DNA from: an uncultured Erysipelotrichaceae bacterium
GTDB lineage: Bacteria > Bacillota_I > Bacilli_A > RFN20 > CAG-826
NCBI GenBank assembly: GCA_947166565.1
Contig: CAMVEL010000002.1
Span: 1 to 64,000, forward strand
DNA: 64,000 nucleotides
Reading direction: 5' to 3'
The notes under the pieces: generated by a model
Databases searched by the model: none
Seen by the model: the letters and a program-made list of their open reading frames with translations, nothing else
What the model was told of the DNA's origin: nothing
Shown: positions 8,391-62,431 of the stretch, one piece after another
Numbering within the stretch: the first letter of the stretch is position 1
How the letters are laid out: each line of letters starts with the position of its first letter
Position numbers and translations under genes: made by a program

Positions 8391-8428
8391 CGCTTTAATA
8401 AAATATTTTTTAAAAAAGTTTTCATTTT

Positions 8429-8472
8429 TTTGAGCCAATTTTCGAAAAAAACCACTATTAGTTAGTAGAGGG
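8429..8472 (+). promoter_or_regulatory. Conserved 44-bp promoter-like element, copy 1
   Basis: TTTGAGCCAATTTTCG (8429-8444), ten variable bases, then CTATTAGTTAGTAGAGG (8455-8471). The same two blocks at the same distance occur at 21367-21410 and 58776-58819. Here it precedes the 62-residue peptide gene by 98 nt. An A/T-rich tract lies just upstream in all copies. Probably a specialised promoter: the first block would be the -35 region and the second the -10 and start region. Confidence 0.75.
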
Positions 8473-8570: not shown

Positions 8571-8759
8571 ATGAGTAAAATACCATTATCGGATTCCGAA
8601 CTATCTTCAATTAGGGCTGGGGAAGCGATCACCTTAGCGACCGTGATGGTCGTCTTCACCGTCGTCATTTTGACGGTCGTCGCCTATCGCCTTTTCGTTT
8701 CCAGGGGAGGTAAGGTAACTTTGCCTAGCGGCTATAAATTCGAGTGGTCCGCAAAGTAA
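8571..8759 (+). CDS. Small peptide with double-glycine-like leader (bacteriocin-like)
   Basis: A 62-residue peptide with AGGAGG at 8557-8562, 8 nt before the ATG. Residues 6-17 read LSDSELSSIRAG, which fits the LSxxELxxIxGG leader of class II bacteriocins and ComC-type pheromones, with AG in place of GG at the cut site. The predicted mature part is one hydrophobic helix (about residues 19-43) followed by a Gly/Lys/aromatic tail (GYKFEW). Such leaders are cut by peptidase-C39 ABC transporters; none is next to it (the exporter at 15-19 kb shows no C39 domain). It could instead be an uncleaved single-helix membrane protein. The upstream element is shared with comEA. Confidence 0.7.
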   Translation: MSKIPLSDSELSSIRAGEAITLATVMVVFTVVILTVVAYRLFVSRGGKVTLPSGYKFEWSAK

Positions 8760-21352: not shown

Positions 21353-21366
21353 AAAATTTTCAAAAA

Positions 21367-21410
21367 TTTGAGCCAAATTTCGCTTTTTGCCCCTATAAGT
21401 TAGTAGAGGC
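21367..21410 (+). promoter_or_regulatory. Conserved 44-bp promoter-like element, copy 2
   Basis: TTTGAGCCAAATTTCG (21367-21382), ten bases, then CTATAAGTTAGTAGAGG (21393-21409); about 40 of 44 bases match copy 3. TAGAGGC (21404-21410) can pair with GTCTCTA (21419-21425), so the transcript would again start with a hairpin. It ends 31 nt before the ATG of the 86-residue membrane protein. Confidence 0.75.
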
Positions 21411-21441: not shown

Positions 21442-21702
21442 ATGAGTGAAGAAGAAAAATATGCAAAAAACGTCAAATGGGTCCGATACGGCGGCATTTT
21501 GATGGCAATCGTTTTCCTGGTTTTGGGAATTTTCCGTCTCTTCCTCGCCAAGGATATCCTTGGCTGCGTCGAATGCGGATTGCTAGGACTAGGGATGGCC
21601 TTGATCCTTCTTTCCCTTTCCTCCAAGATGGAACATGACTTAGAGAAGGAGAAGAAGGAAGAAATCCTCAATACCCCGGAAGAACACGATATAGGATTCT
21701 AA
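21442..21702 (+). CDS. Small two-helix membrane protein
   Basis: 86 residues from ATG 21442, with GAGGTG 5 nt upstream (GTG at 21436 overlaps that site and is less likely). Charged N-terminus, a helix at about residues 17-37, a short loop with CVEC, a second helix at about 44-60, then an acidic/basic coiled C-terminus. No known family recognised. It shares its upstream element with comEA and the bacteriocin-like peptide, so it may be an immunity, channel or DNA-uptake accessory protein; this is inference only. Confidence 0.75.
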   Translation: MSEEEKYAKNVKWVRYGGILMAIVFLVLGIFRLFLAKDILGCVECGLLGLGMALILLSLSSKMEHDLEKEKKEEILNTPEEHDIGF

Positions 21703-24049: not shown

Positions 24050-25309
24050 ATGAACAAAAAACTGCTACCCTCATTGCTAATGGCTTTGATTTTGACTTCC
24101 TGCGGGGGAGGTGGCGTCGACCCTTCCTCCTCTTCTAGCGACGCCCCCTTAGACGAACAAGGCTATTTCAACGGATTATCGGACGCGATGGATAAAACCT
24201 CGAAGGTCGATGGATATCGGATGTATACCCCCCACGCGAACGCCAAACTCGGCATTTTCGAAAACGGCTATGTAAACGCGAATGTGGGTTTCCTAATTAA
24301 CCCAGGGGAAAACGAAACGAATTTCGCCCTCGAAATAAAGAAGATGCCAATCGACATCATCTTCGCTGGCCGCAACGAGGAAGATAAGAACAAGCGCGCT
24401 TTCTCAATGACCAATTCCCTGGAAGACGTCGATGGGAAAATGAGCGGCAAACTCGGTTCCTATCCCTTCAATAACCTTCCAGTCCCCAATTTTTCCACCT
24501 ATTTCCAAGATGGGAAGCTCTATATCGACGCTTATGCGTTGGCTAGGCAAATCCGCACGATCACCCTAGGAAGCGTGAAGCTCCCCTATGATGGGAGGAT
24601 CTGCTTCCCCCCACTAAGCGAAGAGGAAATAAGAAATGACCCCGAAATATCATCGATGCTCGATGACATGCCGGTCGATGTCCCTTCCGATTACGAGGAA
24701 TTCAGCGTTAACGACATCCTCGACATGATGTCTTTCCTCGATGATCTTGGAGGAGTCGATTTCACCAAGGTCTTCGATAAGCTGAGCGAATTCGACTATA
24801 GCCTTTATGAGGTTACGGGCCCCACCTACTGGACTTTTGAAGGAGAGGATACCATCAAACTCAAGATAGAAGGACAAGATAAGCTCCGGGCTTTCCTGCT
24901 TTCCGCTTACGATGAGATTTTCGACGAAATTCCCGTCGTCGGGGCGGAAGTCCCCGATAAGGAGGAAACGATCGATTCCTTCCTCGAGACCATGAATTTC
25001 GAGTCTTTCGAAAGCGTATACAAATTCTCCGATAAGGGCCTCGCCTATAACAAATACGCCTTGGCGATTTCTTCCTTCAATAGCGATAAATTCGTCTATA
25101 AGGATGAACAAGGCGTCGAGCAGCCCCTCGATATAGTCCCTAACGGGAGATTCGCCCTTTCCTATGGCTTCGCTTACGATTATGAGGTATTGACTCCGAA
25201 AAGAGTCACCAATCCAGAGGATTTCACCGAGATTGATTACGTTGACCTCCTCAAGGACCTTTTGGAAGCCATTCCTAGCGGCGAAGAAGAGGAAACCTCG
25301 TCCAATTAA
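24050..25309 (+). CDS. Hypothetical lipoprotein
   Basis: 419 residues from ATG 24050 (AGGAGG 24039-24044). Signal peptide with lipobox LTSC, then a Gly/Ser-rich linker (GGGG... SSSSSD). The mature region is acidic, with repeated FDD/DEI segments, and has no family I recognise; it resembles the substrate- or polymer-binding lipoproteins found in related gut Bacilli. A TATAAT at 24017-24022 just after the methyltransferase stop suggests its own promoter. Confidence 0.8.
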   Translation: MNKKLLPSLLMALILTSCGGGGVDPSSSSSDAPLDEQGYFNGLSDAMDKTSKVDGYRMYTPHANAKLGIFENGYVNANVGFLINPGENETNFALEIKKMPIDIIFAGRNEEDKNKRAFSMTNSLEDVDGKMSGKLGSYPFNNLPVPNFSTYFQDGKLYIDAYALARQIRTITLGSVKLPYDGRICFPPLSEEEIRNDPEISSMLDDMPVDVPSDYEEFSVNDILDMMSFLDDLGGVDFTKVFDKLSEFDYSLYEVTGPTYWTFEGEDTIKLKIEGQDKLRAFLLSAYDEIFDEIPVVGAEVPDKEETIDSFLETMNFESFESVYKFSDKGLAYNKYALAISSFNSDKFVYKDEQGVEQPLDIVPNGRFALSYGFAYDYEVLTPKRVTNPEDFTEIDYVDLLKDLLEAIPSGEEEETSSN

Positions 25310-58724: not shown

Positions 58725-58752
58725 GGCTCGATTAAATCGGGCCTTTTTCTTT
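58725..58752 (+). terminator. Terminator of greA
   Basis: GGCTCGA (58725-58731) pairs with TCGGGCC (58737-58743, one wobble), followed by TTTTTCTTTTT. Confidence 0.88.
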
Positions 58753-58775
58753 TTCCTTAAAAAATTTTTCAAAAA

Positions 58776-58819
58776 TTTGAGCCAAATTTCGATTTTTACC
58801 ACTATTAGTTAGTAGAGGC
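58776..58819 (+). promoter_or_regulatory. Conserved 44-bp promoter-like element, copy 3 (comEA)
   Basis: TTTGAGCCAAATTTCG (58776-58791), ten bases, then CTATTAGTTAGTAGAGG (58802-58818). Copy 1 differs mainly in the variable middle; copy 2 differs at 4 positions. It ends 35 nt before the comEA ATG, and GGAGG (58843-58847) follows as ribosome site. GGCA (58817-58820) can pair with TGCC (58827-58830). Confidence 0.8.
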
Positions 58820-58854: not shown

Positions 58855-59397
58855 ATGAAAACTATCATCATCGTGGTCGTCTTGACTCTAGTTGGCTTAA
58901 TCGGCTTCAGTTTCGTTTCCTCTTCTTATGAGGCAAGCAATGATGCGATGTCTAGTGTGGTCAACGAAAAGAATACGGCGTCTTATACCATTTCCGGAGC
59001 GGTCAACCGCCCAGGGACCTATGTCTTGCCCGCGGATTCCACAATGGACGATCTCATCATCGCCGCGGCGGGGGCAACCGTTAACGCGGATTACCTTTCT
59101 TATGATGTCACCTTCACCCTTCGCCCTGCTGATAAATCGTATTACATCGCCCCAATTTACGATAACGAGGATACATGCGCGAAGGACCCAATCGTCAAAT
59201 GCGACATCAATTCGGCGGATATCGACACCCTCCATGAGGTGGCGGGTTTATCTAACGCCTTATGCCAGGCCGTCGTTTCATTCCGCGCGACAACCGTTTT
59301 CCAGGCTTTGGAGATGGTTAAGGACGTTCCGGGAATAGGCCAAGCCACCTATTTGGCCATTCGCAACAAGATCACTTTAAGATCTCCTGGAGCGTAA
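58855..59397 (+). CDS. comEA: Competence protein ComEA (DNA receptor)
   Basis: 180 residues. N-terminal membrane anchor (about 3-25), an SLBB-like beta domain (SYTISGAVNRPGTYVLPADS), a short linker with CAKDPIVKC, and C-terminal helix-hairpin-helix motifs (INSADIDTLHEVAGLS, VKDVPGIGQATY). Binds double-stranded DNA at the cell surface for uptake. comEC follows after 12 nt; comEB is absent. Its upstream element is shared with two small membrane protein genes. Confidence 0.93.
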   Translation: MKTIIIVVVLTLVGLIGFSFVSSSYEASNDAMSSVVNEKNTASYTISGAVNRPGTYVLPADSTMDDLIIAAAGATVNADYLSYDVTFTLRPADKSYYIAPIYDNEDTCAKDPIVKCDINSADIDTLHEVAGLSNALCQAVVSFRATTVFQALEMVKDVPGIGQATYLAIRNKITLRSPGA

Positions 59398-59409: not shown

Positions 59410-61449
59410 ATGAAAGCCCTCTTCCTGCTTCTAGGGCTTTGCTCGGGCATACAACTTGGATTCCTAATTGCGGTCAATGATTATTTAGGTGTTGTGTGCC
59501 AACTCGTCCCTTCCTTTCTGTTTATGGTGTTGTCTATTAAAAAGAAGCAGGTTTTTCCTTTTCTTCTTGCCTATACGATAAGTTTTCTCCTTGGGATAAT
59601 CGCCCTTCCAATCGAAGGAAAAAGCGAATTTTCCGGTATCGTCATAAGAAGTAGCGATAATTATTTTGTCCTCTTTAGCAATTTCCGCAGATATTACGTT
59701 TACGAAAAGGACAATATCCGCGAAGTTGGGGACATCCTTACAATTAACGGGAGGGCTTCCGCTTACCAAGGGGCGTTCTACGAATCCAGGTTCGATTTTG
59801 GGCGTTATCTAGCAAGTTTGGGAGTCCGTTATCAAATCAATGCCTATTCGATTTCCGCAAGATTCGAAAATCCATTAAGGCTCAAAGCGCTCGAGAACGG
59901 GTTTCTCAATGGGCTTGTTCCATCCGCGAAAGGGTTGACCTCAAGCCTCTTTTTTGGAAGAAAGGATTACGAAACGGAAATAACATCTTTGGCGGATTCG
60001 ATGAATTTGGTATTCGCAATATCCTCTTCAGGATTAATATACGGATTCTTCCTTAGGGAACTGGAGAAGCGGTTATCCTGGAAGATAGATGAAGGCAAAG
60101 CCGCTTTGACAACGTTGTTGATTTCATTTGTCGTTCTGCCTTTAGGAATTCATAAAATTGGCATTAGACGTGTATTTCTAACTAGATTGCTGCGCTTCAT
60201 CAACGTCAGATTCTTAAACAAGAGATTTAGCAGGATCGAGATAATCTCCTTCGCGGGGATAATCATGTTTGCCCTGAATCCTTTCGATGCCTTGCAAAGC
60301 GGCTTTCAGCTTGGCTTTGGTATCTCGATGGCCTTTCTCCTAAGTGAAAGAAGAATCAAGGATTTCGGGGTTTTTCTGCCCTATCTAATAAGGATTGTCT
60401 TCCTCCGCTTGCTTATCCTCCCATTTACCCTTTCTTCATCTAGCGGAAAACTCCATTTGTTATCCGGAATCTATAGCCAGATTCTTCTTCCTTTATCGAT
60501 TCTTTATACCCTAATTTCAGGCGTTACGTTTCTTATTCCCTATATAAAAGGAATCCTCAATCCTTTAGGGAAAGGCTATTATTACGTTCTAAAAGGCTTC
60601 TCTTATCTTGATCCTTCGATTAGATTGCCGCCTCCAAGCCCTCTCTTCTATCTTCTTTATTATCTAATACTTTTCCTGTTAATCCTTTTGCTAGAGATAA
60701 AAGCCCATCGATTAGCGGGGATCATTACGATTTCGAGCCTTTCGATCTATGCCTTATCATGCACTCCACTTCCGCTTGCCTTCACCGATCAAGTCAGCTT
60801 CATAAACGTCGGACAAGGGGATTCGATTCTTATTAGGGATAACTTCAATACGGTTTTAATCGACACGGGTGGAAACATATCATTCGATATGGCAGAAGAA
60901 GTGTTAATACCATTTTTCCGTAAGGAGAGAATCGACCATATCGATTATCTTTTCATCACCCACGGGGACTTCGACCATGATGGGGCCAAAGACTCTTTGA
61001 TGCGGAATTTCGATGTTAGACACTGTATAGATTCCCATTTAGATTTCCCCATAAAAATAGGCGGACTAACTTTTACGTCTTACAATATATATGGTGGTAA
61101 TGAAGAAAATGATTTATCCCTAGTTTTAGGCGTTTCTTTAATGGGTAAGAAATGGCTATTTACGGGTGATGCACCGAAAAAGGTGGAGAAAAACATCATT
61201 AAGGACAACCCTGAAATTGATTGCGATATCCTTAAACTCGGCCACCATGGATCAAACACTTCGACTTGCCCAGAATGGCTTGACGTCCTGACCCCCGAGA
61301 CCGTCATCGTCTCTTGCGGGCGGAACAACAAATATGGTCACCCACATAAGGAGGTAATCCAGGAATGTGAGAAAAGAGGAATCGAAATCCGAAGAACCGA
61401 TCAAGAAGGTACGATAACCTATCGGAGTTTCTCTTTTATCGGGGTATAA
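59410..61449 (+). CDS. comEC: Competence protein ComEC/Rec2 (DNA channel)
   Basis: 679 residues. DUF4131 region, the central competence domain with many membrane helices, and a C-terminal metallo-beta-lactamase domain with GQGDSILI, THGDFDHDGA, LFTGDA and LGHHGSNTS. Makes the channel for single-stranded DNA; the lactamase domain probably degrades one strand. Translated from inside the comEA transcript. Its end overlaps the promoter of holA. Confidence 0.95.
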   Translation: MKALFLLLGLCSGIQLGFLIAVNDYLGVVCQLVPSFLFMVLSIKKKQVFPFLLAYTISFLLGIIALPIEGKSEFSGIVIRSSDNYFVLFSNFRRYYVYEKDNIREVGDILTINGRASAYQGAFYESRFDFGRYLASLGVRYQINAYSISARFENPLRLKALENGFLNGLVPSAKGLTSSLFFGRKDYETEITSLADSMNLVFAISSSGLIYGFFLRELEKRLSWKIDEGKAALTTLLISFVVLPLGIHKIGIRRVFLTRLLRFINVRFLNKRFSRIEIISFAGIIMFALNPFDALQSGFQLGFGISMAFLLSERRIKDFGVFLPYLIRIVFLRLLILPFTLSSSSGKLHLLSGIYSQILLPLSILYTLISGVTFLIPYIKGILNPLGKGYYYVLKGFSYLDPSIRLPPPSPLFYLLYYLILFLLILLLEIKAHRLAGIITISSLSIYALSCTPLPLAFTDQVSFINVGQGDSILIRDNFNTVLIDTGGNISFDMAEEVLIPFFRKERIDHIDYLFITHGDFDHDGAKDSLMRNFDVRHCIDSHLDFPIKIGGLTFTSYNIYGGNEENDLSLVLGVSLMGKKWLFTGDAPKKVEKNIIKDNPEIDCDILKLGHHGSNTSTCPEWLDVLTPETVIVSCGRNNKYGHPHKEVIQECEKRGIEIRRTDQEGTITYRSFSFIGV

Positions 61450-61459: not shown

Positions 61460-62431
61460 ATGATTTACCTTATCGCCTGCCCAGATTCGACCCTTGCGAT
61501 CTCCTTGGCAAGAAACGCCATTAAAAAGGAATTGCCCGTCCGTGACGAGTTCAATTTCGTTTCTTTCAATATGGCCGACACCCCTTTGCTGGAGCTATCC
61601 CAAGAAGCAGGTTTTCTCCCTCTTGGCTACGATAAGAAAGCGATTATTGCCCAAAATTGCTATTTCCTTGAAAAACAAGGAAAAGGTTCGAAGAAGATGA
61701 TGGACGGCCTTGATGACCTTAAGGCCTATTTGGAGCATCCCGCGGAATTCACCGATTTATATTTGCTTGTCTATAGCGATAAGCTCGATGAAAAGTCCCC
61801 TCTTTATGAGGCCATCAAGAAAAATGGGCATATTCAGATCGAGAAAGCCCCGGACGAGGCCTTCTTGAGGAAGGTCATGAATAATTTCCTCGCCAAAAGA
61901 GGAATCAAAATAGAAGAAGCGGCCGCCAGAGAACTTTTATCAAGGGTCGGCAATGATTACGCAAGACTTTCCAACGAACTGCGCAAGCTCGACATTTACG
62001 TCGATGGGGAGGATATCCGCCTTGAAGCCGTTAAGTTGTTGGTTAATGCTAGACTTGAGGACAATGTTTTTCAAATAAGCGAAGCCCTTTTAAACGATAA
62101 CGTCAAAAAAGCATTATCGACCTATTACGACTTAAAGGTTTTGAATACCGATGAGGTTTCACTGATTTCGATTTTGGCGACGCAATTCCGCTTCGCAGAT
62201 CAAGTTTCCTATCTTGATTCGATGGGTCGAACAAAAAGGGAAATCGCCTCGATTCTTTCCGCTAATGAATGGCGCGTTGGGAAAACGTTGCAAACCCTAT
62301 ATGGAGTTAAACGCGAAACAATAGCCAGAATAATCGAACAACTATATGAAGCGGATAAAATGATATTGACGGGATCCGCGAATCCCGAATTCGCCTTTAC
62401 TAGATTCTTGGCTAACTTCAGTTTAGATTAA
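61460..62431 (+). CDS. holA: DNA polymerase III delta subunit
   Basis: 323 residues, clamp-loader delta fold: an AAA+-like domain without Walker motif, DDLKAYLEHPAEFTDLYLLV, ELLSRVGNDYARLSNELRKL lid region, then the C-terminal collar helices. Opens the sliding clamp. comEC-holA adjacency as in Bacillus. No ribosome site; leaderless or made from the comEA-comEC transcript. Confidence 0.92.
   Translation: MIYLIACPDSTLAISLARNAIKKELPVRDEFNFVSFNMADTPLLELSQEAGFLPLGYDKKAIIAQNCYFLEKQGKGSKKMMDGLDDLKAYLEHPAEFTDLYLLVYSDKLDEKSPLYEAIKKNGHIQIEKAPDEAFLRKVMNNFLAKRGIKIEEAAARELLSRVGNDYARLSNELRKLDIYVDGEDIRLEAVKLLVNARLEDNVFQISEALLNDNVKKALSTYYDLKVLNTDEVSLISILATQFRFADQVSYLDSMGRTKREIASILSANEWRVGKTLQTLYGVKRETIARIIEQLYEADKMILTGSANPEFAFTRFLANFSLD

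Follow-up and report, generated by a model that had tools for sequence, protein, structure and literature searches.

Here we describe a short DNA element in the genome of an uncultured rumen or gut bacterium that is probably the promoter of a competence (natural transformation) regulon read by a SigH-type sigma factor. The copies of the element keep one register and have DNA-uptake and recombination genes among their neighbours. Functional equivalents recur across the genus, and a SigH-like gene occupies a conserved locus in these genomes. The window referred to below is the whole stretch of 64,000 nucleotides that was analysed, and the window genome is the assembly (1.85 Mb, about 92% complete) to which it belongs.

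Structure of the element and its copies

An earlier note on the window described two sequence blocks that recur at 8429, 21367 and 58776 with exactly ten bases between them. These coordinates and the spacing were borne out with zero mismatches, and the expectation for the pattern in shuffled sequence is 0. The count of three proved too low for the whole genome. When up to three mismatches were allowed, the two-block pattern occurred 10 times in the assembly and not at all in the reversed control, and a query with only the 3' block pointed to some twenty sites. A sequence-only profile made with 19 copies identified 21 copies at E < 1e-5 (E = 2e-17 to 5e-6), and the next match has an E value of 0.74. 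All 21 have a coding start or an RNA-like unit downstream on the same strand. No exact copy of the element was found in IMG/VR. The three window copies and the genes around them are as follows.

8419..8471, + strand: putative competence element, copy 1 (TGAGCC 8431-8436, CTATTAGTTAGTA 8455-8467, predicted start site A8467)
8571..8759, + strand: small secreted-peptide candidate of 62 aa, with a double-glycine-like leader (LSDSELSSIRAG) and a hydrophobic core
21357..21409, + strand: putative competence element, copy 2 (TGAGCC 21369-21374, CTATAAGTTAGTA 21393-21405, predicted start site A21405)
21442..21702, + strand: small membrane protein gene, 86 aa, without known family
58725..58743, + strand: terminator-like hairpin of the upstream gene, directly ahead of copy 3
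58766..58818, + strand: putative competence element, copy 3, the top-scoring copy (TGAGCC 58778-58783, CTATTAGTTAGTA 58802-58814, predicted start site A58814)
58855..59397, + strand: comEA (SLBB and helix-hairpin-helix)
59410..61449, + strand: comEC (Competence and metallo-beta-lactamase domains)
61460..62431, + strand: holA, DNA polymerase III delta subunit, final gene of the comE operon

Twenty copies align without gaps, and in this register C33-T-A, G39-T and A42-G-T-A45 are invariant, as are most bases of the 3' block. The order is TTTTCAAAAA (or a T tract), TGAGCC, AATTTTCGATTTTT, NCCA and CTATTAGTTAGTA, followed by G and a GAGG- or GGAGG-like continuation. The element extends upstream in most copies, where TTTTCAAAAA or TTTTCATTTT precedes TGAGCC, and positions 24 to 28 are T-rich in most of the 20. 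The gap from TGAGCC to CTATTAGTTAGTA is 18 nt in nearly all copies. In the weak 21st copy, on contig C3, the 3' block is longer by one base.

The motif looks like a promoter, with TGAGCC as the -35-like block, the 18-nt gap as the spacer, and CTATTAGTTAGTA as the -10-like block, the last A of which would be the start site. The earlier note had proposed a dedicated promoter or activator site. A sigma-70-type promoter match was looked for at the window copy and none was seen. Judged by its distance from the CTATTA hexamer, the start of transcription would be near A45. At comFA and at a gene for a C39 peptidase the ATG lies inside the element and its A is the invariant A45, and in the majority of the other copies the element is followed within one or two bases by GAGG or GGAGG. 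Because the predicted start coincides with the A of the ATG, the comFA and C39 mRNAs should be leaderless. If transcription does begin near A45, the mRNAs of the regulon would be either leaderless or would begin with a ribosome-binding site.

Competence genes and other targets

The element lies directly upstream of a pilus-ATPase operon, comEA-comEC-holA, comFA-comFC, dprA and recA. The late-competence gene classes that carry it therefore include pilus, DNA-uptake, ssDNA-protection and recombination functions. The third window copy precedes the comEA-comEC genes as had been noted, with holA as the last gene. The comFC assignment is based on position and zinc-finger-like cysteines and has no Pfam match, and the recA under the element was recognised by reading its sequence. 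The ATPase of the pilus operon is TadA/VirB11/ComGA-like and is the sole T2SSE-family protein found in the genome. This protein is closer to TadA/VirB11 than to ComGA, and two membrane proteins occupy the TadB/TadC position. The genome has no other operon for pilus-type secretion than this one (L089 2628-7296), which possibly encodes a Tad-like DNA-uptake pilus.

The earlier note expected the element to mark com genes and few others. The com genes that were located are marked, but the second part fails, as some 16 of the 21 targets fall outside the classical com genes. Copies with no relation to genes, or com genes that lack the element, would have spoken against its reading. Instead comFA-comFC, dprA, recA and the pilus-ATPase operon all carry it. 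The remaining targets are genes for a C39-peptidase membrane protein, for a TnpB and for a 156-aa protein, an operon that encodes two MacB-like ABC proteins, three paralogues without a family, and a gene for a 125-aa protein with a VanZ-like one behind it. The two small ORFs of the window, the 37-aa peptide unit in five copies and a long ORF-less stretch complete the set. Those with coordinates outside the window are listed here by locus.

L081 2625-3794: TnpB/Cas12f-like protein (OrfB_IS605), directly under the element
L084 8821-9342, L085 221-742 and L090 2616-3119: three paralogous genes for 167-173-aa proteins, with the element within near-identical upstream DNA
L087 3392 (+), L093 2973 (+), L094 2785 (-), L096 2757 (-) and L097 2892 (+): five dispersed units encoding 36-37-aa peptides (coding-strand positions)
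L091 2630-3250: ORF-less stretch of ~620 nt (contig C22 of the window genome), directly downstream of the element copy at 24081-24133

The first small ORF of the window (8571-8759) is the sole one with a double-glycine-like leader in the DNA of this genome that was scanned. It differs from its counterpart in a sister species by 5 synonymous and 2 nonsynonymous codon changes, and the leader reads SIRTG there. The product may be an exported peptide, a candidate competence pheromone or bacteriocin. The C39 peptidase gene shares the element with this ORF. The second small gene (21442-21702) shows 8 synonymous and 2 nonsynonymous codon changes. Both had been described in the earlier note as small membrane peptide genes.

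No family was found in Pfam, PHROG or PADLOC for the 167-173-aa paralogues. The peptide of the dispersed units has the sequence KAALRILLAALLxLGTLFPxRW. In these units the ribosome-binding site is strong, an ORF upstream and the 3' region are conserved, the latter apparently able to fold, and one copy is frameshifted. A glmS ribozyme is present at L094 6820-6969. The ORF-less stretch is strongly folded (z = -4.75), about 96% identical in the sister species and without a match to any Rfam family. It is possibly an undescribed structured RNA of the competence regulon.

Species-specific versions and the candidate sigma factor

The full-strength element is confined to the window genome and its sister species (G025) among the 61 genomes searched. 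The sister species has 21 full-strength copies, and 29 other genomes of the same genus have none. Nearly all of the sites fetched from the sister species correspond to sites of the window genome, with 0-3 changes in a 37-nt core. The other genomes of the genus keep the system with element sequences of their own, and most related species have their own version. Within a genome, a 49-nt stretch upstream of comFA matches one upstream of dprA in 15 of 23 same-genus genomes and one upstream of comEA in 10 of 14 (p <= 0.05; the counts leave out the window genome and its sister, and the p-values, from simple letter shuffles, are rough). The comFA-dprA sharing is not significant in some genomes, for example G001, G005, G022 and G026. 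Similarity matches to dprA rest on the first 200 query residues. AGGAGG usually stands directly after the shared stretch at dprA and comEA. At comFA a TATAA-like box lies at a fixed distance from the start codon, and a Shine-Dalgarno sequence is absent in nearly all genomes of the genus. The consensus of 24 aligned comFA upstream regions is CC...TTT...CCTATAAgTaAGT followed directly by RTG, with TATAA at -11 to -7 and a T at -1 in 23. The Shine-Dalgarno sequence is also missing at 44 of 65 wider comFA loci, which come from public genomes. These are MAGs of Bacilli from rumen and gut, often under the title uncultured Erysipelotrichaceae or Bacillales, and they include a 99% match, RUG266.

Four sigma-like genes are present in the window genome: rpoD, an adjoining small RpoD-like sigma, an ECF-like gene (contig C20) and a gene for a 216-aa protein at the rlmB-secE-nusG locus. 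A SigH-like gene occupies the last position in 28 of 31 genomes, in 26 by similarity and in two by position. The gene rlmB is directly upstream in nearly all and secE or nusG downstream in several, which gives the neighbourhood cysS-rlmB-sigH-secE-nusG. In the PDB, a profile of the family matches chains of sigma-H, sigma-E and SigA, with homology to sigma regions 2 and 4, and its best match is a sigma-H factor (E = 1.2e-8). The protein of the window genome alone matches spore_sigH weakly (E = 0.0027) and falls below the cut-off of the curated SigH family; the top genus member reaches E = 2.9e-9 to a SigH model. Mean identity between genomes is 28% for the SigH-like protein versus 63% for ComFA. 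The distance between elements tracks the SigH distance when the ComFA distance is controlled (partial r 0.29, permutation p 0.001), a correlation that ignores phylogenetic non-independence and may stem from phylogeny beyond what ComFA captures.

The same competence promoter could have another reader, either the small RpoD-like sigma beside rpoD (C2:86484-87161) or the ECF-like protein, although we consider this unlikely. The rpoD-adjacent gene directly follows rpoD in the window genome, the sister species and several other genomes of the genus, and it evolves fast (40% identity to G021). However, in G002, G003, G004, G006, G007, G016, G017, G020, G022, G023 and G027 a trmK-like gene stands right behind rpoD, without a sigma gene in between (this concerns that position only), and the element shared between com genes is kept in at least seven of these (G002, G004, G006, G007, G020, G023 and G027). 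The SigH-type sigma at the rlmB-sigH-nusG locus is thus our leading candidate for the reader because of its locus, the sigma-H match of its profile, the tracking of distances and the lack of the rpoD-adjacent sigma from its position in those genomes. The sigma-factor reading of the earlier note is the favoured one.

There is also a small probability that sigma-A initiates at these sites with the help of a dedicated activator, the CTATAAG block serving as the -10 and TGAGCC as the activator site. The -10-like block of many relatives is indeed near TATAAT, but the window copy lacks a sigma-70-type match, and the near-constant 18-nt gap is what would be expected of one polymerase footprint. That the copies are a mobile or extragenic repeat family found near genes by chance is very improbable. 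Five copies do lie inside the dispersed unit of the 37-aa peptide, and three stand before the paralogues, whose upstream DNA is near-identical. Outside the element the other copies have nothing in common, and all aim at a start codon or an RNA unit, while the close correspondence of sites in the sister species and the equivalents found across the genus also stand against chance.

In the SigH-type promoter model, RNA polymerase with the sigma factor would contact TGAGCC and CTATTAGTTAGTA, the latter as -10 and discriminator, and transcription would start at or beside the final A of CTATTAGTTAGTA. Transcripts would then be leaderless (comFA, C39 peptidase) or would have the ribosome-binding site right at their 5' end (dprA, recA and others). 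Activation of the sigma factor would switch on DNA uptake through the pilus operon, comEA-comEC and comFA-comFC, as well as strand integration through dprA and recA. The accessory outputs would be exported peptides, the C39 peptidase, ABC transporters, TnpB and the structured RNA.

Relationship to known competence regulons

The ComK box is a pair of the form AAAAN5TTTT, and ComK targets the same gene class. AT-rich tracts flank the element, as they do the Bacillus subtilis ComK box. By this definition the view of the earlier note that the element is not a ComK box stands, the conserved core having no such pair. Bacillus SigH promoters have a GAAT-type -10 element. The conserved block contains no GAAT, and by that definition we rejected an identity with these promoters.

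In Lactobacillus sakei, sigH lies in a cysS-nusG neighbourhood and activates com genes, and the SigH proteins of L. sakei and L. plantarum share 29% of their residues (PMC3364868). The SigH of Staphylococcus aureus also controls competence (PMC3486894). The SigH-like gene described here has the same cysS-nusG neighbourhood as that of L. sakei and also diverges fast, its 28% being comparable with that 29%. Unlike the competence regulons of L. sakei and S. aureus, the regulon described here has putative promoters that are not of the GAAT type. The SigX regulon of streptococci combines a -10-type box with a T-rich tract upstream of it and with extras that are bacteriocin-like (PMC6001120, PMC6328492). 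The SigX (ComX) late-competence regulon resembles the present one in the T-rich stretch before the -10, in dprA, comFA, comEA, the pilus operon and recombination genes, and in extras of the bacteriocin type. In S. mitis SK321 the SigX box lies only 7 nt before the comFA ATG (PMC6001120, Table 4), a near-counterpart and precedent for the comFA arrangement described here. However, the cin-box is TACGAATA, and the block at the -10 position here is CTATTAGTTAGTA, which does not match it with one mismatch allowed. There is an additional conserved -35-like TGAGCC, and the accessory genes differ. The earlier note had likewise set the element apart from the cin-box. We liken the regulon to those of SigX and SigH but do not place it among the cin-box members, because the design is shared and the sequence is neither cin-box nor GAAT-type.

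Tentatively, these genomes may hold a competence regulon common to a lineage of gut Bacilli. It would combine a fast-evolving SigH-type sigma factor, promoters fused to translation starts (leaderless or with 5'-end ribosome-binding sites) and a recognition sequence that turns over between species of one genus. Exported peptides, the nuclease TnpB and a large structured RNA that belongs to no described family would be co-expressed with it. The element and its targets predict natural transformation in a large uncultured gut lineage, for which a likely sigma factor is named. The promoter sequence allows the members of the regulon to be listed. The drift of the promoter set between species of one genus would offer a natural series for the study of sigma and promoter co-change, and the joining of promoter and start codon at comFA, which is conserved in the genus and also outside it, lends itself to a direct test.
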